Assembly: GCA_029863605.1 (NCBI GenBank)
Contig: JAOTVB010000014.1
Coordinates: forward strand, 1-64,000
Reading direction: 5' to 3'
Origin: Myxococcales bacterium
GTDB taxonomy: Bacteria > Myxococcota_A > Polyangia > Polyangiales > Houyiibacteriaceae
DNA: 64,000 nt
Below the pieces are notes generated by a model. It did not search any database. It saw only the letters and a list, made by a program, of their open reading frames with translations, and was not told the origin of the DNA. The first letter of the stretch is position 1, and each line of letters starts with the position of its first letter. The translations under genes and the position numbers were made by a program. Positions 3,626-13,620 of the stretch are shown one piece after another.

Positions 3626-5275
3626 ATGCGTATCGGAACTTCGTACAAACAGCATCGTGATCTCGCTGATCGATGGGATGCCATCGTCATCGGCTCGGGC
3701 ATCGGCGGGCTTGCTGCCGCTGCCACGCTTGCGAAGCTTGCGGATAAGCGAGTGCTGGTGTTGGAGCGGCACTACACCGCGGGCGGCTTCACGCACACGT
3801 TTCGGCGTCCCGGCTACGAATGGGATGTCGGCGTCCATTACATCGGCGAGGTCTCCAGGCCGGGCTCGGCGATGAGGCGTGTCTTTGATTTCGTGACCGA
3901 CGGCGCGCTCGAGTGGGCCGACATGGGCGATGTCTACGATCGCATCATCATCGACGACCGGTCGTACGACTTCGTCAAGGGTCGCGAGCAATTTCGAGAA
4001 AAGCTCCACGGCTACTTCCCCAAGGAAACCCGCGCGATCGATGACTATCTCGAAAAGGTCCGCGCCACCTCGAGAAAGGGCCAGCTCTTTTTCGCCGAAA
4101 AAGCGGTGCCGAGTTTGGTCTCGTCGGTGTTTGGCGGCCTGATGCGAAGGCCGGTTCTCAAAGAGGCGCGGGTCACCACCCGTCAGGTGCTCGAAAGCCT
4201 CACCCAAGATCAAGAGCTGATCGGCGTCCTGACGGGACAGTGGGGCGACTACGGATTGGTGCCAGCGGAAAGCAGTTTCTTCATCCACGCCATGGTTGCG
4301 GGTCACTATCTCAACGGTGGCGCGTATCCCGTGGGCGGCGCCTCACGGATCGCCGCGACCATCCTGCCCGTCATCGAAAGTGCCGGAGGTGAGGTCGTCA
4401 CCAATGCCAACGTGCAGAGGGTCTTGATCGAAGAGGGACGGGCGGTTGGTGTGATCCTCGAAGACGGTCACGAGCTGCGCGCGCCTTTGGTGATCAGCGA
4501 TGCGGGAGTCGCCAATACCTACGGCCGCCTCCTCCCGAACGATGTCGCCGAGGACCGCGGCCTTCGCACCAAAGTCGATGTGATCGAGCCCTCGGTCGCG
4601 CACCTCTCCGCCTACATCGGCCTCCGAGGCACGACCGAGGACCTTCAGCTCCAAAAGACCAATCTATGGGTCTACCCGACGCCGCATCACGAGGAGAACG
4701 TTCGGCGTTTCGTCGACGACAAGAACGCTCTGCCGCCGGTCGTCTACCTGTCGTTTCCGTCCGCGAAAGATCCGGACTTCCAGCGACGCTATCCCGGCCG
4801 CTCGACGATCGAGGCGATCACCCTCGCGCCCTACTCGTGGTTCGAGTCCTGGGAGGGCACCACATGGAAGAAGAGAGGCGCAGATTACGATGCGTTCAAA
4901 GGCGAGCTCGAGGCGCGATTGCTCGAGACTCTCTACGAGCAGGCCCCGGCAACGCGCGGCAAAGTCGAGATCTGCGAGCTCTCGACCCCCCTCACTACCC
5001 GGAACTTCGCCAATCACCCACGTGGCGAGATCTACGGTTTGGCGCATACCCCCGCACGCTTCGAGCAGCGGTGGCTCCGGCCGCGCACCCCGATCAAAGG
5101 TCTCTACCTCACCGGCGCCGACGTCTGCTCGGCGGGAGTCGGGGGCGCATTGATGGGCGGGATGCTTTGCAGCTCTGCAGTGCTCGGACGCAACGTTCTC
5201 GGCACCGTTCTGCAGCGAAAGGCGCAAAGCCTGCGCGACACCGCGGCCTCACACGAAGTTTCCGCGCACGCTTGA
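3626..5275 (+). CDS. Phytoene desaturase/retinol saturase-like FAD oxidoreductase
   Basis: A 549-residue amine-oxidase-fold flavoprotein. The dinucleotide-binding motif GSGIGG is at residues 23-28, followed by VLERHYTAGGFTHTF and the DVGVHYIGEV stretch characteristic of the CrtI / all-trans-retinol 13,14-reductase group. The C terminus has the second FAD-contacting segment, GLYLTGADVCSAGVGGALMGG. Such enzymes act on membrane-soluble polyenes or related lipids, desaturating, saturating or isomerising them. No other carotenoid gene lies nearby, so the substrate is unknown. A GGAGA ribosome-binding site precedes the ATG. The gene follows the TetR gene by 9 bases. Confidence 0.85.
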   Translation: MRIGTSYKQHRDLADRWDAIVIGSGIGGLAAAATLAKLADKRVLVLERHYTAGGFTHTFRRPGYEWDVGVHYIGEVSRPGSAMRRVFDFVTDGALEWADMGDVYDRIIIDDRSYDFVKGREQFREKLHGYFPKETRAIDDYLEKVRATSRKGQLFFAEKAVPSLVSSVFGGLMRRPVLKEARVTTRQVLESLTQDQELIGVLTGQWGDYGLVPAESSFFIHAMVAGHYLNGGAYPVGGASRIAATILPVIESAGGEVVTNANVQRVLIEEGRAVGVILEDGHELRAPLVISDAGVANTYGRLLPNDVAEDRGLRTKVDVIEPSVAHLSAYIGLRGTTEDLQLQKTNLWVYPTPHHEENVRRFVDDKNALPPVVYLSFPSAKDPDFQRRYPGRSTIEAITLAPYSWFESWEGTTWKKRGADYDAFKGELEARLLETLYEQAPATRGKVEICELSTPLTTRNFANHPRGEIYGLAHTPARFEQRWLRPRTPIKGLYLTGADVCSAGVGGALMGGMLCSSAVLGRNVLGTVLQRKAQSLRDTAASHEVSAHA

Positions 5276-5330
5276 GCGGACACCCGGATCGCTTCGCGGG
5301 GTGTCTCCGATTGAGTATGCTACGCGGACT

Positions 5331-5915
5331 ATGACTCCCCTCGACATTTCGCATCCGCTTTGGGAACAGGTCTACATGGTGGCCCCGCTGACCATCATTG
5401 GGACGCGCGAGCCCGATGGCACATACGACCTCGCCCCAAAGCACATGGCCATGCCGCTCGGTTGGCAGAACCACTACGGCTTCGTTTGCACGCCTTCGCA
5501 TGCGACCTACGCGAATGCGCGGCGCGAAGGTTGCTTCACGGTGAGCTTTCCTAGGCCGGATCAGATCCTGCTCACCAGCCTCACTGCCGGGCCGCGTTGT
5601 GACGACGCCCAAAAGCACGCGCTCGACGCGGTGCCCACCATCCCAGCGACGAAGATCGATGGCGTGCTCCTCGACAATGCGTATCTCCATTTCGAATGTG
5701 AGCTCGAGAAGATCATCGATGGCTTCGGGATCAACAGCCTCATCATCGGGGGGATCGTCGCCGCCGCCGTGGCCGAAGACAGCGCCCGATACGCCGACGT
5801 CGATGCGCAGGAGATGATCGCGCATTCGCCAATGCTGGCCTATCTCCACCCCGGCCGCTTTGCGAAAATCGTCCAAACCCAGGCTTTCCCCTATCACGTG
5901 GGCTTTCGACGCTGA
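5331..5915 (+). CDS. Flavin reductase-like (FMN-binding split-barrel) protein
   Basis: About 194 residues with the features of the flavin-reductase-like family: an N-terminal strand VAPLTIIGTREPDGTYDLAPKH, then a cysteine- and aromatic-containing FVCTPSHATYANARREGCFTVSF segment, where such proteins bind FMN. The family includes NAD(P)H:flavin oxidoreductases and proteins of unknown role; this one is divergent in the central part. A GTG at 5301 would add ten residues, but the ATG at 5331 starts at the conserved region. The gene lies 55 bases after the oxidoreductase gene and 9 bases before the M20 peptidase, so it may belong to either transcript. Confidence 0.75.
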   Translation: MTPLDISHPLWEQVYMVAPLTIIGTREPDGTYDLAPKHMAMPLGWQNHYGFVCTPSHATYANARREGCFTVSFPRPDQILLTSLTAGPRCDDAQKHALDAVPTIPATKIDGVLLDNAYLHFECELEKIIDGFGINSLIIGGIVAAAVAEDSARYADVDAQEMIAHSPMLAYLHPGRFAKIVQTQAFPYHVGFRR

Positions 5916-5924
5916 CCGATCCCG

Positions 5925-7100
5925 ATGAACGAGGACCAGCCGAAACGAATTGTCGAGCATCTCGAAGGGAGGCGTCCTGAGATGCTCGAGCTCCTCGAGC
6001 TCCTGGTTCGCGCAGAATCCCCATCCGAGGAGCCAAGCGCCCAAGGCCGGATGCTTGGCTTGCTTTCGGATGCGTTCCTCGAGCGTGGGTTTCGACCTCG
6101 GGTCATCCCTGGAAAACAGAGCGGCGGCATGTTGCTTGCGATGCCGGTGAGCCGCGTGCGGCGCCGCCCTCATCAGCTCGTCCTTGGCCACTGCGACACC
6201 GTGTGGCCGGTGGGGACCCTCCAGTCGATGCCAATCAAGATCGAAGAAGGGACTTTTTGGGGACCCGGGTGTTTCGACATGAAAGCAGGATTGGTCCAAG
6301 GCCTCTTTGCTCTCGATGCCCTTCGTGCAACCGGTGCTGACACGTTTTCGGTCACCCCGGTGTTCTTCATCAATTCCGACGAGGAGATCGGAAGCCGCGA
6401 TTCGACGAGCGTCATCAAACGCCTCGCGCGCTCGGCCGATCGATGCTTCGTTCTCGAGCCATCCCTCGGCCCCGAGGGACACCTCAAGACCGCTCGCAAA
6501 GGGGTGGGGCGCTTCACGATCCGGGTGCTGGGCAAGGCGGCTCATGCCGGGCTCGACCCGGGCAAGGGAGCAAGCGCCATTCTCGAGCTCTCTCTCGTGA
6601 TTCAGAAGTTGTTTGCTCTGAACGACGCCGAAAAGGGAATCACTGTCAACGTCGGAACCATCGATGGCGGCCTCAGCCCAAACGTCGTCGCGCCTACGAG
6701 TCAGGCGACAGTCGATGTCCGCGTTCCGACGAGCGCGGATGCGGAGCGAATCGAGCGCATGATCCATGCATTGCGGGCCGAGACGCCGGGAACGACGCTC
6801 GAGGTGGAAGGCTCGATTGGCCGTCCGCCGATGGAGCGCACCCCCGGCAACCAAAAGCTTTGGCTGCTGGCGCGCCGAGGTGCCGAGGACCTCGGCATTC
6901 AGATCGATCAAGTCACCGCCGGGGGAGGCTCGGACGGCAACACGACGAGCCAGTATGCGCCGACCCTCGATGGTCTCGGTGCGGTGGGCGCCGGGGCCCA
7001 TGCGGCGAACGAGCATTTGGTCTTGGAAAGGATGGTCGAGCGTTCCGCTCTCCTGGCGCGGCTGCTCTCGTTCCCTCCGCTCGCGGAGGCTGGACTATGA
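5925..7100 (+). CDS. M20-family metallopeptidase (glutamate carboxypeptidase-like)
   Basis: A 391-residue zinc hydrolase of the ArgE/DapE/CPG2 superfamily, which removes C-terminal or acyl-linked amino acids. Metal-binding residues are visible: His89 and Asp91 in LGHCDTV, bridging Asp118 in GCFDMKAG, and the NSDEEIGS glutamate pair that holds the catalytic base and a ligand. The dimerisation lid follows (VGRFTIRVLGKAAHAGLDPGKGASA), then the late GGGSDGN segment. There is no signal peptide, so it acts in the cytosol. Its stop overlaps the start of the next gene (ATGA at 7097-7100), which implies translational coupling to the P-loop protein. The exact peptide or N-acyl substrate is unknown. Confidence 0.88.
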   Translation: MNEDQPKRIVEHLEGRRPEMLELLELLVRAESPSEEPSAQGRMLGLLSDAFLERGFRPRVIPGKQSGGMLLAMPVSRVRRRPHQLVLGHCDTVWPVGTLQSMPIKIEEGTFWGPGCFDMKAGLVQGLFALDALRATGADTFSVTPVFFINSDEEIGSRDSTSVIKRLARSADRCFVLEPSLGPEGHLKTARKGVGRFTIRVLGKAAHAGLDPGKGASAILELSLVIQKLFALNDAEKGITVNVGTIDGGLSPNVVAPTSQATVDVRVPTSADAERIERMIHALRAETPGTTLEVEGSIGRPPMERTPGNQKLWLLARRGAEDLGIQIDQVTAGGGSDGNTTSQYAPTLDGLGAVGAGAHAANEHLVLERMVERSALLARLLSFPPLAEAGL

Positions 7101-8113
7101 CCGGCAAGATCTTTCATGGCTCGCTCACACGGATCACGGATTTCGACCGTACTGGCTTCGATTGCCAGTCGTTGCCGCGCGAACAATGGGAGGCTGGAGA
7201 TTATGTCGTGGGCCAGGTGGCCATTACGCGGGGTGGGCTCTCGGCCATCGAGCTCAGGAGCGGCCGACTGATCCAAGCCATCGAGGGAGACTCGGTCCTT
7301 GGAGCGCTGGGGGTGCGCCATGCCACCCTCGAGATCGTGGGTTCGTGGAAAGAAGTGGCGGCTGACGGGCACATGCACCTGCTGACCGCCGCCGGACTCC
7401 TCGGCCGGGCCACCTCCGTATCCAGGATGATCGGAGTACCGATGCGCGTCGACTATCAAGGTCATGCGATGCGCAACGGTACCAAGCTGCGCATGAAGGA
7501 CTTTGCCAAGGCGCCCTCGAAGACACATGACTATGACGTTCCGACGATTCTAGTGATCGGCACGTCGATGTCGGCCGGTAAGACGACGTCCGCCAAGATC
7601 ATCGTGCGCCAACTCAAGCGCGCGGGACACCGCGTCGTCGGTGCAAAGCTCACGGGCGCGGGTCGGTATCGCGACATTCTCGCGATGCGGGACGCCGGAG
7701 CGGACGACATCTTCGATTTCGTCGATGTGGGGTTGCCTTCGTCCGTGCTGGATCCCGAAGACTTCCGACCACGCCTGCGCGATCTACTCGGTCTCATCGT
7801 CGAAGCGAAGCCCGATTTGGTCGTCGCAGAGGCTGGGGCATCGCCACTCGAGCCCTACAACGGCGACACCGCGCTCGAACAGATTCAGGACTCCGTCGCG
7901 ATGACCGTTCTCTGCGCGTCCGACCCGTACGCGGTGGTCGGTATCATGCGCGGCTACCAGATGATGCGACCCGATTTGGTGGCTGGGCTCGCAACCAGCA
8001 CGAGCGCCGGCGTCGAGGTCATCGAGAAGCTCAGTGGCGCAAAAGCGCTCAACATGCTGAATCCGGCGAGTATCCCCGAGCTCCGCCGGTTGCTCGCCAA
8101 TGCTGTTGGCTGA
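7097..8113 (+). CDS. P-loop NTPase, DUF1611/MobB-like, unknown function
   Basis: A 338-residue protein in two parts. The N-terminal 140 residues are a beta-rich domain (GDYVVGQVAITRGGLSAIELRSG, then SVLGALGVRHATLEIVGSW) that I do not recognise. The C-terminal half carries a Walker A motif GTSMSAGKTT at residues 155-164, followed by VVGAKLTGAGRYRD and a later VVAEAGASPLEPYNGD segment. The layout recalls DUF1611 proteins or MobB-type nucleotide-binding adaptors, without a clear match to either. The reading frame is open further upstream, but the ATG at 7097 overlaps the stop of the M20 gene and is the natural start. Tight coupling suggests a joint role with the peptidase, perhaps ATP-dependent handling of the same small peptide. 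Confidence 0.7.
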   Translation: MTGKIFHGSLTRITDFDRTGFDCQSLPREQWEAGDYVVGQVAITRGGLSAIELRSGRLIQAIEGDSVLGALGVRHATLEIVGSWKEVAADGHMHLLTAAGLLGRATSVSRMIGVPMRVDYQGHAMRNGTKLRMKDFAKAPSKTHDYDVPTILVIGTSMSAGKTTSAKIIVRQLKRAGHRVVGAKLTGAGRYRDILAMRDAGADDIFDFVDVGLPSSVLDPEDFRPRLRDLLGLIVEAKPDLVVAEAGASPLEPYNGDTALEQIQDSVAMTVLCASDPYAVVGIMRGYQMMRPDLVAGLATSTSAGVEVIEKLSGAKALNMLNPASIPELRRLLANAVG

Positions 8114-8121
8114 GAGGGGCG

Positions 8122-9471
8122 CTACAACTCGGTCAGGGCGATGATGTCGGCACGGGCCGGGACGTCGTCCGGGACTTCCTCGAGCAACAGATCTGCTGGG
8201 CAGGCGGCCCGTTCCAAAAGGGCCCTCAGCGGTCCAAGCAGAACCGATTCGTTTTCCCCTGCGTCGTTGCGGTCGTCGATCCGCCTCAAGCCCGCCTCGG
8301 CGAGCTCCAGGATCTCGCCAGCCCAGTCGGCGACCTCTCGTCCCAAGAATCGAGTACGAACGCCATGCCGAGCGAATGATTCGCGACGCCGCTCGACCTC
8401 TTGGTACGACCATCCGTCGACCACTGCCTCGAGGGCACCAAAACTCCGATCATCGTAGAGGAGCCCCTTCCACAACGCGGGAAGCGCGAACGACATCTCG
8501 TTGCGCTGCGCGTCGGCCCCACGGTATTCGAGTGTGCTCTTCAGACGGACCTCCGGAAACAAGGTTCGTAAGTGGACTACCCAATCGTCGTAGATGGCCT
8601 TCACGCCCTGAAAGCCATCGTTCATGAACGAACGAAAAGTCTGACCGGTATTGTGATAGACGTTGCTGCCGCGCTTCACGAGAAACATGGGCGCGTCGAT
8701 CGCCCACTCGACGTAATCGAGGTACCTCGGGTGGTCCTTCCAGGCGAAGGGCAGCAATCCGGATCGATCGGGATCCATGTGCAGCCACACCAGCGCACGG
8801 TACGATTGAAAGCCAGAGCGCCGGCCTTCCTGCCAGGGGCTGTTGGCAAACATCGCAGTAATGAGCGGCTGCGCGCGCAGCCCCACTCGAAGCTTGCGCA
8901 TGGCGTCTTCCTCGGATGCGTAGTCTAGGTTGGCCTGCACGGTAGTGGTCTTCGTCATCATCTCCGCCGCCATCGATCCGCGCTGCGGCAGGTATTCGCG
9001 CATGACCTCGTAGCGAAGTTTCGGAACCCAACCGAGCTCCTCGACACGAGCGAACGGGTGACAACCGAGACCGAGCCAAGTGAGCCCAAGCTCCTCGATG
9101 ATGGGCGAGAGCTCTTGCCAGTGAGCTTCGGACTCCGCCTTTCCTTGGTGCACGGTTCGATAAGGAGCGCCCGAAAGCTCGATCTGCGAGCCTGGCTCGA
9201 GGGTGACCGACGCGTCCCCGCGCCGGAGCGAGACTATTGGGCCATCCTCGAGCTCCTGTACCGGCTCCCATCCCCGTTCGTGGATCAAGTAATTGAAGAT
9301 CGTCAGCACGCTGACCGGGCCGTCATAAGGCAGCGGCGATCCGTCCGCCCGACCGACCGCGCACCGCTCCGCTTCGGTTCCGATCAACCAGCGTTCGCGA
9401 GGCTTTTCAGCCTCGTGAAAAAGCACGAGCAAGTCATCCAACTTGCGAACAGGAGCATCGGGTGTGGGCAA
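8122..9471 (-). CDS. gshA: Glutamate-cysteine ligase (plant/proteobacterial type)
   Basis: A 449-residue GCS2-family ligase that joins glutamate and cysteine with ATP, the first step of glutathione synthesis. Family features are the IGTEAER motif near residue 30, GSQIELSGAP, the GCHPFA loop, MREYLPQRGSMAAEMMTKTTTVQANLDYASEEDA, and TLEYRGADAQ. The length (about 450) fits the plant-like class used by many proteobacteria. No glutathione synthetase gene (gshB) is adjacent. The gene converges on the P-loop gene with 8 bases between stops, and diverges from the TRAP solute-binding gene across about 130 bases that must hold both promoters. Confidence 0.92.
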   Translation of the reverse strand: MPTPDAPVRKLDDLLVLFHEAEKPRERWLIGTEAERCAVGRADGSPLPYDGPVSVLTIFNYLIHERGWEPVQELEDGPIVSLRRGDASVTLEPGSQIELSGAPYRTVHQGKAESEAHWQELSPIIEELGLTWLGLGCHPFARVEELGWVPKLRYEVMREYLPQRGSMAAEMMTKTTTVQANLDYASEEDAMRKLRVGLRAQPLITAMFANSPWQEGRRSGFQSYRALVWLHMDPDRSGLLPFAWKDHPRYLDYVEWAIDAPMFLVKRGSNVYHNTGQTFRSFMNDGFQGVKAIYDDWVVHLRTLFPEVRLKSTLEYRGADAQRNEMSFALPALWKGLLYDDRSFGALEAVVDGWSYQEVERRRESFARHGVRTRFLGREVADWAGEILELAEAGLRRIDDRNDAGENESVLLGPLRALLERAACPADLLLEEVPDDVPARADIIALTEL

Positions 9472-9599
9472 GTGTCCTCGGGTCGGCCGGTTGGGCGCCG
9501 GACCCTACCACGAAGCCCAGAAACGCGCCGCTCGGCCGTCTCTCGTTGACCGGCGTGTGCCCGCTTCCTTTTGGTCGAATAAGTCGTTAGAAGGTTCCG

Positions 9600-10607
9600 A
9601 TGAGCAAAGTCTTCTACTTGGGTGGGGTCGCGTTGGTGCTGAGCCTCGCGGTCGCGGGGCCATTGCCGGCACAAGAGCCTGAATTCGTGATGGAGGTGGG
9701 GACTGTCGCGCCTCCCGGAAGCCCGTGGGCCGACCAACTGAAACGATTCAAGAAGGATGTTCAGTCACGCACCGACGGCCGAGTCAAGGTGAAGCTTCGA
9801 CTCGGACGCGGGAACGAACGCTCGTTGGCGCGACGCGTCCAGATGGGAAGCATGCAGTCGTTTGCGGGGTCCGTGGGTGGGATGAGCTCGATCGTACGGG
9901 AGGTCAACGTCATCGAGTCGCCCTACCTGTTCGCGGACTTCGCCTCGGCCGACAAAACCCTCGACGACCCCGCAGTCAAAGAGCAGATGAAGAAGATCCT
10001 GGCCAAGCGCGGCTTGATCTTCGGAATCTGGTCCGAGAACGGATATCGTTCGTATTTCAGTCGGCGCCCGATCCGCAAGCCGAGCGACATGAAGGGGATT
10101 CGGTTCCGATCGCAGGAGTCAATGGTGCATGTCGAGACCTACCAGGCGTACGGAGCGACCCCGGTCCCGATCGACGTTGCGAACACCCTCATGAGCTTGC
10201 AAACGGGAGTCGTCGACGGTTTCGACAATACGCCACTCTTCGCGATGGCCGGAACGTGGTACCAGGGGCTCAAGGAGGGGGAGCGCAACTTGTTCCTCAG
10301 CCGCCACTGTTACCAGCCCGCGTTGCTCGTGTATTCGAAGAAGTGGTTCAATGGCCTCCCGAAAGACATTCAAGACGTACTGACGAGCGTGCCCTACGAG
10401 CTCACGGTCTGGGGTCGAGGCCAAGTCCGCAAGATCGAGCCCGTTCTCCTGAAGAACCTGGCCCGCTACGGCTACGAAATCTACGAACCCACCGCCGACG
10501 AACTGGCCCCCTTCAAGGCTGCTCAACGACAGGTCCCGGACCTCGTCGCCAAACAGATGGGGCCGGCCGGTCAGGCGCTGCTGAAGGAAATCCGCAGAGC
10601 GATGTAG
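9600..10607 (+). CDS. dctP: TRAP transporter solute-binding protein (DctP family)
   Basis: A 335-residue periplasmic binding protein with an N-terminal signal peptide (LGGVALVLSLAVAG, predicted cleavage near PLPAQ). Typical DctP features are VGTVAPPGSPWADQLKRF, the KGIRFRSQES segment whose arginine usually pairs with a substrate carboxylate, PIDVANTLMSLQTGVVDGFDN, and the late tryptophan-rich helix. In TRAP systems this protein delivers organic acids to membrane subunits DctQ and DctM. Neither subunit is encoded here: a divergent ligase lies upstream and a convergent SulP gene downstream. A ribosome-binding site AGAAGG (9589-9594) lies 5 bases before the ATG. It probably works with subunits encoded elsewhere. 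Confidence 0.88.
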   Translation: MSKVFYLGGVALVLSLAVAGPLPAQEPEFVMEVGTVAPPGSPWADQLKRFKKDVQSRTDGRVKVKLRLGRGNERSLARRVQMGSMQSFAGSVGGMSSIVREVNVIESPYLFADFASADKTLDDPAVKEQMKKILAKRGLIFGIWSENGYRSYFSRRPIRKPSDMKGIRFRSQESMVHVETYQAYGATPVPIDVANTLMSLQTGVVDGFDNTPLFAMAGTWYQGLKEGERNLFLSRHCYQPALLVYSKKWFNGLPKDIQDVLTSVPYELTVWGRGQVRKIEPVLLKNLARYGYEIYEPTADELAPFKAAQRQVPDLVAKQMGPAGQALLKEIRRAM

Positions 10608-10659
10608 CCGCGGTCAGCTTGACGCCGCACCAACAGCTAGAAAAGAAGCGGATCCTGGC

Positions 10660-12312
10660 TCACTCCTCCTTGGGGGGCGGCGGGGGCGACGGGATCAGCG
10701 AGTTTCGGCGGGTCGCCGCGCGGATGCCGCCTCGGGTGTAGCGGCCGATCAACGAGCGCCACTCCATGACGACGCGCCCGCCGCTTTCGTTGTGGCGCAA
10801 TTGGAAGGCGGCGATCAAATCGAGACACGCATGGTCGATGAAGTCGAGCTCGTCAAAGTGCATGTGGAGCTCGGTGCCGGGCGGGATCTCCTCCAGCGCG
10901 GCAGCGAGCCTGGGAAGGGCGAGAAACGTAGCCGCGCCGTGGAGGTGGAGCTCGATGCGCTCGTCCCGATCGACGCGGTCGATGTCGAGATGTGCCAACG
11001 AATAGACCAACCTGAGTGTCGAAAGCACCAAGCCGATGACGATGCCCGTCAGCAGGTCGATGGCCACGATACCTGTCACGGTCGCCAGGTAGATCCCGAA
11101 CACCGGCCATCCGTACCCCAGAAGCTTTCCCAGGGTGGATACCTGCACAAGGCGGATGCCGACGTAGATCAGGATAGCAGCCAGCGCCGACTCCGGAACG
11201 AACCCGAGGAGCCCGGGGAGCAGCACGACGAAGAGGAAGATCCACGTTGCGTGCATGATCGAAGACCACTTGCTATGCGCGCCCGCCTCGACGTTGGCCG
11301 TGCTGCGGCTGATGACCCCCGCGATGGGGAGCGATCCCAGGGCGCCGCAAACGAGGTTCCCGAGTCCTTGAGCGGCGAGCTCTCGATCATAATTGGTGCG
11401 GCCGCCCCGCTGGTGCATCTGGGCCACGGCGGTCGAGCAAAGCAAGGTCTCGGCGCTGGCAACGAACGCCAAGGCCACCCCCGAGATCCAGATCCGGGTT
11501 TCCATGAGCTTCGAAAGCGAGCCCGCGCTCGGCAAGGTAACGTACTCGAAAAGAGAGTTCTTCACGACCACGTAGTCGATCGGAAGCCGGAGGACAGCCG
11601 CCGCGATCGACGCTACGAGGACGCCCATCAGCGCCCCGGGAAGGAAATGCAGCCTCGCGGGCCGGAAGCGATCCCAAAGCACGATGGTGAGCAACGTTGC
11701 CACGCCGATCAGAGCCGCGATGTAGTGCGTGCGGTCGCCCCCGGTGGTCACTGCCTTGAGCACGCCGGCGGGGATTTGGACGATGTTGTAGAGGACGCTT
11801 CCTTCAACATCGTTGCCGATCATCACGTGGAACTGCTTGGCGACGATGATCACCCCGATCCCAGCCACCATGCCTCGGATCACCGCTGGAGAGACCGCGC
11901 GGAAATAGGTGCCGAATTTCATCAAGCCCGCGGCGGCCTGAATGGCTCCGGCGATCATGACGATGACCGCTAGGCTCATCAGGCCGTATGGGTCTTCTTC
12001 GTTGCGATATGCGAGGACCCACTCGAGCATGAGCACGCTCAGGCCTGCTGAAGGTCCTGCGATTTGAAGTGGCGCGCTACCTAGAAAGCCGACGAGCACA
12101 CCGCCTACTACTGCGGTGATCAGCCCAAGCATCACCGGTACGCCCGATGCCCGCGCGATCCCCATCGACAACGGGAGTGCGATGAGAAACATCACCACGG
12201 AGGGCGGCACGTCTTTGACGATCACCCTCAGCTTCTCATCTAGTGCAGAGATCCCCGGCTCCTTCGATCTGCAATCGGCCTCAAAGAGAAGCCTTATACC
12301 ACGGTCGGCCAC
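10660..12312 (-). CDS. SulP-family anion transporter with STAS domain
   Basis: An inner-membrane transporter of the SLC26/SulP family (sulfate, bicarbonate or other anions). Multiple hydrophobic segments cover about residues 35-420, including PPSVVMFLIALPLSMGIA and the family-typical AGPSAGL motif. The C-terminal ~110 residues form a STAS domain (ELHMHFDELDFIDHACLDLI). A GTG at 12312 gives 550 residues with 33 before the first membrane segment. The frame stays open to a TTG at 12420, but the added residues are not membrane- or family-like and would run up to the pyrE start. The start is therefore approximate. The substrate cannot be told from sequence. It converges on the TRAP gene and diverges from pyrE. 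Confidence 0.88.
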   Translation of the reverse strand: MADRGIRLLFEADCRSKEPGISALDEKLRVIVKDVPPSVVMFLIALPLSMGIARASGVPVMLGLITAVVGGVLVGFLGSAPLQIAGPSAGLSVLMLEWVLAYRNEEDPYGLMSLAVIVMIAGAIQAAAGLMKFGTYFRAVSPAVIRGMVAGIGVIIVAKQFHVMIGNDVEGSVLYNIVQIPAGVLKAVTTGGDRTHYIAALIGVATLLTIVLWDRFRPARLHFLPGALMGVLVASIAAAVLRLPIDYVVVKNSLFEYVTLPSAGSLSKLMETRIWISGVALAFVASAETLLCSTAVAQMHQRGGRTNYDRELAAQGLGNLVCGALGSLPIAGVISRSTANVEAGAHSKWSSIMHATWIFLFVVLLPGLLGFVPESALAAILIYVGIRLVQVSTLGKLLGYGWPVFGIYLATVTGIVAIDLLTGIVIGLVLSTLRLVYSLAHLDIDRVDRDERIELHLHGAATFLALPRLAAALEEIPPGTELHMHFDELDFIDHACLDLIAAFQLRHNESGGRVVMEWRSLIGRYTRGGIRAATRRNSLIPSPPPPPKEE

Positions 12313-12427
12313 TCGATCGATCGCTGGGATTCCCGTCGACAGCAGGAGCTGCGCCCAAGCAAGGCAAAGGGCCGCCCGCCTGCAATTCTTGGTTGCGCCG
12401 GCGCCCTGGACGTGGTGCAAATGGCCC

Positions 12428-12976
12428 GTGGATCAGCTTCTCGAGCTTCTCCGGGAGCGGGGTTTCCGTCGTGGCAGCTTCGTATTGAGCTCGGGGAAGG
12501 AAAGCGACTTCTTCATCGATTGTAAACCGGTGGCGCTGCTGGCGCGCGGCCATGTCCTGATCGGAGAGGCCTTGCTCGAACGAATTCGAGATCTCCCCGG
12601 TTCCCTTTCCGCGGTTGCGGGGGTCGAGCTCGGCGGATGCCCGCTCGCTTCAGCAGTCGCTTATGCCTCCGCCGAAAGCGACGACCCACTCGACGCGGTC
12701 TACGTTCGCAAGGAGCCAAAAGCGCACGGTACGCGCAAAACGCTCGAGGGCGCGGACCGACTCACTGCTGGGGCACGCCTTGCTATCGTCGAAGACACGG
12801 TGACCACTGGCCGCTCTACACTCCGCGCGATCGATGCCGTCCGAGAAGCGGGCTTCGAAGTCGCCGGGGTCGTCGCGGTGGTGGACCGACTCGAAGGCGG
12901 CGCAGAAGTGATCACCGGCGCTGGGGTAAGCTTCAGCGCGCTCTATGATCGCACCGACTTCATGGGAGAAACATGA
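12428..12976 (+). CDS. pyrE: Orotate phosphoribosyltransferase
   Basis: A 182-residue type I phosphoribosyltransferase that makes OMP from orotate and PRPP, step five of pyrimidine synthesis. The N terminus has LLELLRERGFRRGSFVLSSGKESDFFIDCK. A YVRKEPKAHGT segment forms the flexible catalytic loop, and the PRPP-binding motif VEDTVTTGRST lies near residue 125. The frame is open far upstream, but similarity begins at the GTG at 12428 (VDQLLELL), which I take as start. Its stop overlaps the start of the following lipoprotein gene (ATGA at 12973-12976). The other pyr genes in this window, pyrC and carA, sit about 43 kb away. Confidence 0.92.
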   Translation: MDQLLELLRERGFRRGSFVLSSGKESDFFIDCKPVALLARGHVLIGEALLERIRDLPGSLSAVAGVELGGCPLASAVAYASAESDDPLDAVYVRKEPKAHGTRKTLEGADRLTAGARLAIVEDTVTTGRSTLRAIDAVREAGFEVAGVVAVVDRLEGGAEVITGAGVSFSALYDRTDFMGET

Positions 12977-13620
12977 TTCGAACCTGCGCATGGTTGATGG
13001 TCGTTCCCCTACTATTCGCTTCGGGCTGCAAGCAACATGCCCTCACGATGGAGCCGGGTCCTCGCGTGTTCACACCCGAGTCATATCCCTATGTTTGGGA
13101 GGCGTGGACGCGGGACGAAGAGTCGTTCTCCTGGAAAGAGCTGAGCCACGAGCTTCACGTCACCGCGACATTCGAATCCTGGGAATTTCGCTGGGCCTAC
13201 GTCGTCCGCTATGCCCGTGACTACAGTCTGCTGCCGAGGGCCCGAGACGAGATGCTTCAGGCCAGCCTCGCCAGCTCCCGCCAAGAGCACCGCTTCTTCG
13301 TCACCCTGGCCGGATTCGATTTCAGGGAGTCCAATCTGGTCAGCAAGCAATCCGCTTGGCGTGTCCTCTTGGTCGACCCGCAGGGCAATCAAAGCGTCCC
13401 GATCTCGATGGAGCGCGTGCGCCGGCCGAGCGCCGTGGACCGCGTGTACTTCCCCCAGGTCGATCCGCTCCGAGAGACATTTCGCCTGATTTTTCCCGCA
13501 GTTGAGCCGGATGGTCGAAAGACGATTCCCGACGGCTCCCCCTTCATCGTGCTCCGATTCACTGGCGCGCGCGGCCGGGTCGACCTTCGCTGGGATTTGC
13601 GACCTTCCCAAGGCACCTGA
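12973..13620 (+). CDS. Lipoprotein of unknown function
   Basis: A 215-residue protein with a short signal peptide ending in a lipobox (PLLFASGC), so a lipid-modified cysteine near residue 19 is expected. The rest is soluble and mixed alpha/beta, ending in short strands (FIVLRFTGARGRVDLRWDL). I recognise no family. It is translationally coupled to pyrE and followed after about 100 bases by a second lipoprotein gene with its own strong ribosome-binding site. Being soluble and anchored, it is probably at the outer or inner membrane, facing the periplasm. Confidence 0.75.
   Translation: MIRTCAWLMVVPLLFASGCKQHALTMEPGPRVFTPESYPYVWEAWTRDEESFSWKELSHELHVTATFESWEFRWAYVVRYARDYSLLPRARDEMLQASLASSRQEHRFFVTLAGFDFRESNLVSKQSAWRVLLVDPQGNQSVPISMERVRRPSAVDRVYFPQVDPLRETFRLIFPAVEPDGRKTIPDGSPFIVLRFTGARGRVDLRWDLRPSQGT

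Follow-up and report, generated by a model that had tools for sequence, protein, structure and literature searches.

The window analysed here is a stretch of 64,000 nucleotides from a Myxococcales bacterium (contig JAOTVB010000014.1, positions 1 to 64,000 of the forward strand), whose genome comprises 54 contigs and 4.2 Mb with a completeness listed as 100%. At 5925-8113 it carries the gene of an M20 metallohydrolase followed by that of a P-loop protein, hereafter PL. Both are encoded on the + strand, and the stop of the first and the start of the second overlap by ATGA at 7097-7100. The features of the locus are as follows:

5301..5915, + strand: flavin-reductase-like protein of 204 amino acids (PF01613, 51.8 bits against a cut-off of 27), the gene upstream of M20 and third member of the gene set that recurs
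5925..7100, + strand: M20 metallohydrolase of 391 amino acids (over the cut-offs of Pfam M20 and M20_dimer; closest relative of solved structure: carboxypeptidase G2)
7097..8113, + strand: P-loop protein PL of 338 amino acids (open reading frame call; AlphaFold2 model)
7097..7534, + strand: N-terminal all-beta part of PL, residues 1-146, with the invariant R74 (DSSP of the model; invariant columns; no Pfam match)
7535..8110, + strand: C-terminal P-loop domain of PL, residues 147-338 (VIA-align Z about 14-16)
7559..7588, + strand: Walker A motif GTSMSAGKTT, residues 155-164 of PL (G161, K162 and T163 invariant in 76 sequences)

The first-pass annotation of this DNA had described an ATGA-coupled M20 gene and a 338-residue P-loop protein with a clean Walker A motif, and the open reading frames, the Pfam matches and the invariant G161, K162 and T163 confirmed this. 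The M20 protein matched Peptidase_M20 with 83.9 bits (gathering score 24.6) and M20_dimer with 71.3 bits (gathering score 21). Its best match in the PDB was carboxypeptidase G2 (6xj5/1cg2; phmmer, E 3e-29), an enzyme that hydrolyses N-acyl-glutamates and that likewise consists of an M20 and a dimerisation domain. The two proteins align at H.D, D, EE and the C-terminal H, which are the metal ligands and the catalytic Glu. Unlike carboxypeptidase G2, the window gene overlaps PL and sits after a flavin-reductase-like gene, and its product scored below the cut-off of the NCBIfam glutamate carboxypeptidase model NF004788 (207.2 against 349 bits).

PL passed no Pfam or NCBIfam cut-off. The sole Pfam hint at E <= 0.001 was DUF1611_C, with 21.9 bits against a cut-off of 25 over 39 residues around the Walker A motif. 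The N-terminal domain (residues 1-146), which the first-pass annotation did not recognise, indeed matched no model of these two profile libraries. An AlphaFold2 model based on an alignment of 76 sequences reached a predicted local distance difference test score (pLDDT) of 94.0 and a predicted template modelling score of 0.92; an earlier one, built from 11 sequences, had a mean pLDDT of 59.5; its fold matches told little, and it was set aside. According to DSSP, residues 1-146 of the model are all-beta apart from short helices at 16-19 and 133-136. Residues 147-338 matched CTP synthetase, dethiobiotin synthetase (BioD) and the DUF1611 structures 2g0t and 2obn at tied VIA-align Z scores of about 14-16 (15.6 for 2g0t and 13.9 for 2obn), with root-mean-square deviations of about 3-4 Å over 173-190 residues. 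HypB and signal recognition particle GTPases came next (Z 13.5-14.2). These alignments cover chiefly residues 146-338 and barely compare residues 1-146.

Thirteen residues, R74, G122, M158, G161, K162, T163, K184, G187, D193, F208, G212, E245 and G297, were invariant in 76/76 PL sequences, including that of the window. The likeness to BioD and to the amidoligase domain of CTP synthetase lies in the fold of residues 147-338 and in the Walker A K-T pair, K184, D193 and E245, which align with K-T, K, D and E of dethiobiotin synthetase. In BioD, those K, D and E residues bind Mg-ATP and substrate, and the intact GKT, K184, D193 and E245 at the matching positions suggest that PL uses Mg-ATP. PL differs from BioD in giving no match to the bioD model (TIGR00347), in its extra N-terminal part and in its operon contexts.

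The C-terminal domain of PL also has the same fold as DgcN and the DUF1611 family (NF041892, PF07755, PF17396; structures 2g0t and 2obn). The DgcN model NF041892 bears the name N-acetyltransferase, and D-Glu is N-acetylated in the DgcN pathway. In contrast to DgcN, the window PL lacks DUF1611_N, has no match to NF041892 and stays below the DUF1611_C cut-off; its Walker A motif reads GKT where that of DgcN reads GKM, and in the profile alignment K184 falls on a G of DgcN. Membership of the window PL in the DgcN family was accordingly rejected on the missing DUF1611_N and the GKT motif. No DUF1611_N match was obtained anywhere in the window genome. Profile comparison with hhalign gave 94.1% (E 1.3e-7) for PL against the DUF1611/DgcN set and 90.9% (E 1.1e-6) against a BioD profile of two sequences only, picked by motif from 12 fetched loci, so PL is not clearly nearer to one or the other. 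A true DgcN was seen in another myxobacterial genome (L153, 1360-2774; NF041892, 544 bits against a cut-off of 480), with a GKM Walker A motif and followed by the start of a gene resembling an enolase-superfamily epimerase (by eye), as in a DgcN-DgcA-type operon.

The conservation of the M20-PL pair was surveyed in 19 genomes of the window genus, several of which are incomplete assemblies. PL was present in 10 and M20 (E <= 1e-60) in 12 of them; nine had both genes, three had M20 without PL, one had PL without M20 (G006) and six had neither. The two genes were adjacent in four of the nine (G000, G017, G008, G012). Three congeners, whose PL is 74-93% identical to that of the window, show the identical 4-base overlap. 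In the other five congeners with both genes, PL lies elsewhere, and the flavin reductase and M20 genes stand together wherever the contig covers both. The neighbours of PL in these genomes, named by eye, were isoleucyl-tRNA synthetase, PolX-like, P-type ATPase, FtsX-like, GMC oxidoreductase and RtcB genes, with no shared theme. Three genomes from other families of the phylum (G356, G352 and G330), found in a sample of 377 Myxococcota genomes, carry a window-type PL of 47-53% identity with M20 (52-63%) directly upstream. Altogether, M20 was found directly upstream in 7/13 window-type PL loci, and a flavin-reductase-like gene lay upstream of M20 in all seven paired loci (in G356 partial, at a contig end). 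In G352 (L076, 10543-12522) M20-PL is directly preceded by a fusion of this flavin-reductase-like domain with a beta-CASP metallo-beta-lactamase.

The recurrence of the overlap in three congeners and the adjacency of M20 and PL in three genomes of other families argue that the overlap is not due to chance. The pairing is an old arrangement that has been broken or rearranged several times within the window genus. The first-pass annotation had called it strict, and that part was rejected, given adjacency in only four of the nine congeners with both genes; that the pairing is real and recurrent stood up. It had also proposed a search for the pair across genomes, and the two genes did not prove to be rarely adjacent elsewhere.

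In the sample of 377 genomes, the PL profile matched 81, 76 of them with E values no higher than 4e-29 and the other five with E values near 1e-4. The 76 genomes comprise 66 with an arginine type (PLarg), five with an ABC type and six with the window type, G352 having both the window and the arginine types; the six consist of three genomes of the window genus together with G356, G352 and G330. In a maximum-likelihood tree of 80 rows, which included 57 of the 66 PLarg rows (nine were omitted to limit the alignment), the window, arginine and ABC types formed three supported groups (100/100, 98/95 and 100/99, respectively), and a row from Priestia had a long branch and an unsure placement. PLarg is about 24-33% identical to the window PL. 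A contig scan with the window PL returned 3 loci, with relatives in Myxococcales or Polyangiaceae metagenome-assembled genomes, and plasmid searches returned distant relatives only (8 and 4 records). Searches of an open-access library of papers brought up no description of PL or of any N-acylglutamate synthase of the P-loop type.

In the best-preserved arginine operons, PLarg sits between argG and argC. The locus L084 has the order carB and carA (divergent), argG, PL, argC, argD, carbamoyltransferase, argB, M20 deacylase, argH, in which argC, the carbamoyltransferase, argB and carA passed their NCBIfam cut-offs, argG, argD, M20 and argH remained below theirs, and carB was named from length and position only. 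The best NCBIfam model was N-acetylornithine carbamoyltransferase for the carbamoyltransferase and ArgE/DapE deacylase for M20. As the best models around PL cover the other steps, step 1 of arginine synthesis, the N-acylation of glutamate, is left without a gene at this locus. A same-strand arginine gene was found within 5 kb of PLarg in 65/66 genomes, the exception (G104) having 8.5 kb of contig upstream and 0.5 kb downstream. Within 500 bp of PLarg, argG was found in 41/66 loci and argC in 58/66, or in 57/62 where more than 1.5 kb of contig lay downstream. Three of the eight loci without a close argC lie where the contig ends, and the contexts of the other five (G178, G265, G140, G135, G187) are looser.

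M20 genes recur in these operons as well. One was present in 24 of the 29 PLarg stretches carrying both argB and argH, and 31 of the 66 fetched arginine stretches have an M20 gene on the same strand as PL. The M20 proteins of the arginine operons and of a Priestia cluster are only distantly similar to the window M20 (e.g. 29% over 245 residues), and the M20-PL association therefore looks functional rather than inherited. In the PDB, the M20 of L084 is closest to 3ct9 (E 6e-42), a Bacteroides thetaiotaomicron protein labelled acetylornithine deacetylase. Opposite-strand response regulators were noticed by eye between the carbamoyltransferase and argB in L100, L106 and L111, and after the carbamoyltransferase in L108.

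The acyl group used in these operons was read from the carbamoyltransferases. A review lists Glu92, Asn185 and Lys302 (E/N/K) as marks of the acetylornithine enzyme, and A/S/P/V/Q, P and V/I/E at these positions as those of the succinylornithine enzyme (PMC4581275); according to GapMind, enzymes with S, P, A or V at position 92 prefer the succinyl substrate (PMC7311316). The carbamoyltransferase was absent from the fetched stretch in 15/66 PLarg loci. In the remaining 51, position 92 was A in 34, V in 8, Q in 4, P in 3 and S in 2; 41/51 were of the succinyl type at all three positions, ten matched at two or one, and the E/N/K set occurred in 0/51. PLarg-free genomes provided 27 carbamoyltransferases for the same reading. 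In genomes without PLarg and ArgJ, 19 of the 25 over the family cut-off scored 548-575 bits, and these were E/N/K, i.e. of the N-acetyl type, in 19/19. The eight that were not E/N/K comprise six over the cut-off and two below it (G182, G157). At three of the six loci (G199, G260, G174) the contig ends at the expected place of PL. Non-acetyl-type carbamoyltransferases in arginine gene groups without PLarg, ArgJ or an over-cut-off ArgA were seen in L227 (G173), L230 (G248) and L228 (G181).

The distribution of three known synthases, ArgJ, NAGS-K and ArgA, was compared with that of PLarg. ArgJ (E <= 0.001) was detected in 4/66 PLarg genomes versus 205/311 others (Fisher p 1.2e-20, with phylogeny ignored), i.e. 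in 209/377 genomes altogether, in 194 of them over the cut-off. NAGS-K, the fused NAGS-kinase, was over its cut-off in 0/61 PLarg genomes (61 of the 66 were searched) and in 17/19 genomes with an E/N/K-type carbamoyltransferase (exceptions G121 and G225). ArgA was over its cut-off in 0/66 PLarg genomes, where the best hits of the model were ArgB-like kinase parts (about positions 2-285 of 429). This negative excludes ArgA proper and not every GNAT, since the model passes in only 1/14 control genomes and weak hits to its GNAT part do occur. Of 106 genomes with neither ArgJ nor PLarg, the first 80 were examined further: ArgA was over the cut-off in 1, ArgC in 33 and the acylornithine carbamoyltransferase in 25. 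The low count of ArgC, with none over the cut-off in 47/80 genomes (some of them incomplete assemblies), indicates that many of these lineages may be arginine auxotrophs.

Two arginine routes thus segregate in the genomes examined, one with NAGS-K and an acetyl-type carbamoyltransferase and the other with PLarg and a succinyl-type carbamoyltransferase. This segregation makes PLarg the best candidate for the N-succinylglutamate synthase, and on the evidence of operon context and exclusion it is a strong candidate for this missing enzyme. The N-acetylglutamate synthases covered in PMC3827942 belong to other protein families, whereas PL is a P-loop protein. PLarg would catalyse the same step, N-acylation of L-glutamate, as ArgA, ArgJ, NAGS-K, S-NAGS, ArgO, Cg3035 and BT3761/Cabys_1732. 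The remaining known kinds of N-acetylglutamate synthase also belong to protein families other than PL.

A role of the window PL itself in arginine synthesis was rejected, as its genome has ArgJ (C28:279755-280930); the window PL is thus not needed for arginine and is a paralogue with a different role. We propose that PL is part of an undescribed family of two-domain P-loop enzymes that would acylate the amino group of amino acids. The PLarg clade would acylate L-glutamate in step 1 of an arginine biosynthesis that runs via succinylated intermediates in many Myxococcota. By the family logic from PLarg, the window PL should acylate an amino acid as well: most likely it makes an N-acyl amino acid, probably N-acyl-glutamate-like, and the overlapping carboxypeptidase-G2-like M20 would hydrolyse the bond so formed, giving a make-and-break (protect/deprotect) pair. 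The acyl donor may be ATP plus an acid, as the intact GKT, K184, D193 and E245 suggest, or acyl-CoA as in DgcN. The data show the operon context, the near-exclusion with ArgJ, the exclusion with NAGS-K in the genomes tested, the specificity residues of the carbamoyltransferases, the predicted fold and conserved residues of the Mg-ATP type; the acylation reaction and its acyl donor, and for the window pair the substrate, are inferred. We hold this reading as a whole with moderate confidence. More tentatively, PL could represent a new class, a BioD-like ATP-dependent N-acyl-amino-acid synthetase with an unassigned beta N-terminal domain, in which PLarg would be the missing N-succinylglutamate synthase and the window clade would run an N-acyl cycle with M20. 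The single pathway originally suggested for the pair, uptake or activation of small peptides or N-acyl amino acids, fits in its N-acyl branch, given an M20 near carboxypeptidase G2 and PLarg in the slot of an N-acylglutamate synthase; nothing was found for uptake or murein peptides.

If the proposal is true, a P-loop family fills step 1 in about one in six of the sampled Myxococcota (66/377), a further solution besides ArgA, ArgJ and NAGS-K, and succinylated arginine synthesis is placed in a phylum other than Bacteroidetes. For the window M20-PL pair, the PLarg result supplies a concrete hypothesis; the N-acyl reading of the pair is plausible, and the claim for PLarg is the stronger of the two.

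Several observations weigh against the proposed acylating role. Four PLarg genomes retain ArgJ (G287, G332, G341, G364), and several genomes with PLarg give weak hits to the GNAT part of the ArgA model (82 bits in G341; G378, G293, G186 and others at most 52). The gene content of PLarg genomes is compatible with GNAT-type synthases as well. In G173 argG lies directly beside argC, and the stretches of G248 and G181 show no PL; contig ends do not explain these three cases, and another synthase must exist there. Three congeners (G005, G013, G002) keep the flavin reductase-M20 genes without PL. DgcN and dethiobiotin synthetase are about equally close to PL, and carrying the function from PLarg over to the window clade, at the identity given above, is an extrapolation.

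Three other explanations were weighed. In the first, PLarg serves the arginine operon as an ATPase with an accessory or regulatory function, and step 1 falls to a GNAT like BT3761/Cabys_1732 that is encoded away from the operon. BT3761 is proposed as the N-succinylglutamate synthase of Bacteroides, which use the same succinylated route, in PMC7311316, and both the other synthase implied by the three genomes without PLarg and the weak GNAT-part hits would suit such an enzyme. However, the presence of PLarg near arginine genes in nearly every genome that has it, never with NAGS-K in the 61 genomes searched and rarely with ArgJ, suits a replacing enzyme better than a regulator. Inspection of five intra-operon gaps and two post-operon stretches, by eye and not with a GNAT model, pointed to two-component systems in four of them and to a GNAT in none. 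We consider this explanation unlikely.

In the second, PL is an ATP-dependent ligase akin to dethiobiotin synthetase, its substrate for carboxylation or amidation is a metabolite that has nothing to do with N-acylation, and M20 is a general peptidase on the same transcript. In structure PL matches the BioD and CTP-synthetase folds best, and its K, D and E residues align with those of BioD. Yet such a ligase leaves the slot in the arginine operon unexplained, where the step without an enzyme is the N-acylation of glutamate, and we regard this explanation as improbable. Very doubtful is a D-amino-acid salvage by the window PL and M20 after the manner of DgcN-DgcA, in which M20 would carry out the last step, a deacylation: PL is remotely similar to DgcN, and dgcN is described as a key gene of D-Glu racemisation in PMC12363236 and PMC10845958, but no DgcA-like epimerase was recognised in the partly scanned neighbourhoods of window-type PL, and the missing DUF1611_N in protein and genome and the GKT motif speak against it.

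Convergent with PL in the window lies a plant-type glutamate-cysteine ligase GCS2 (8122-9471, - strand; TIGR01436, 421.9 bits, just below the cut-off of 463). ABC-type PL genes (L069, L071, L072, L024, L096, L148; L082, L083) have an ABC transporter gene adjoining or within about 2 kb. In two Paracoccus plasmids an alpha/beta hydrolase gene stands alongside, and in L083 HlyD-like, seven-transmembrane-transglutaminase/ATP-grasp-like and S51 peptidase genes come next. A Priestia megaterium plasmid (L070, NZ_CP085446.1 80738-97391) carries at 4724-13412 of that stretch a cluster with a PL homologue and M20, whose other annotated genes encode phosphoenolpyruvate mutase, a split thiamine-pyrophosphate enzyme, a carbamoyltransferase, two ATP-grasp proteins and an LLM oxidoreductase; it has the look of a pathway to a phosphonate peptide in which one step adds a protecting N-acyl group.

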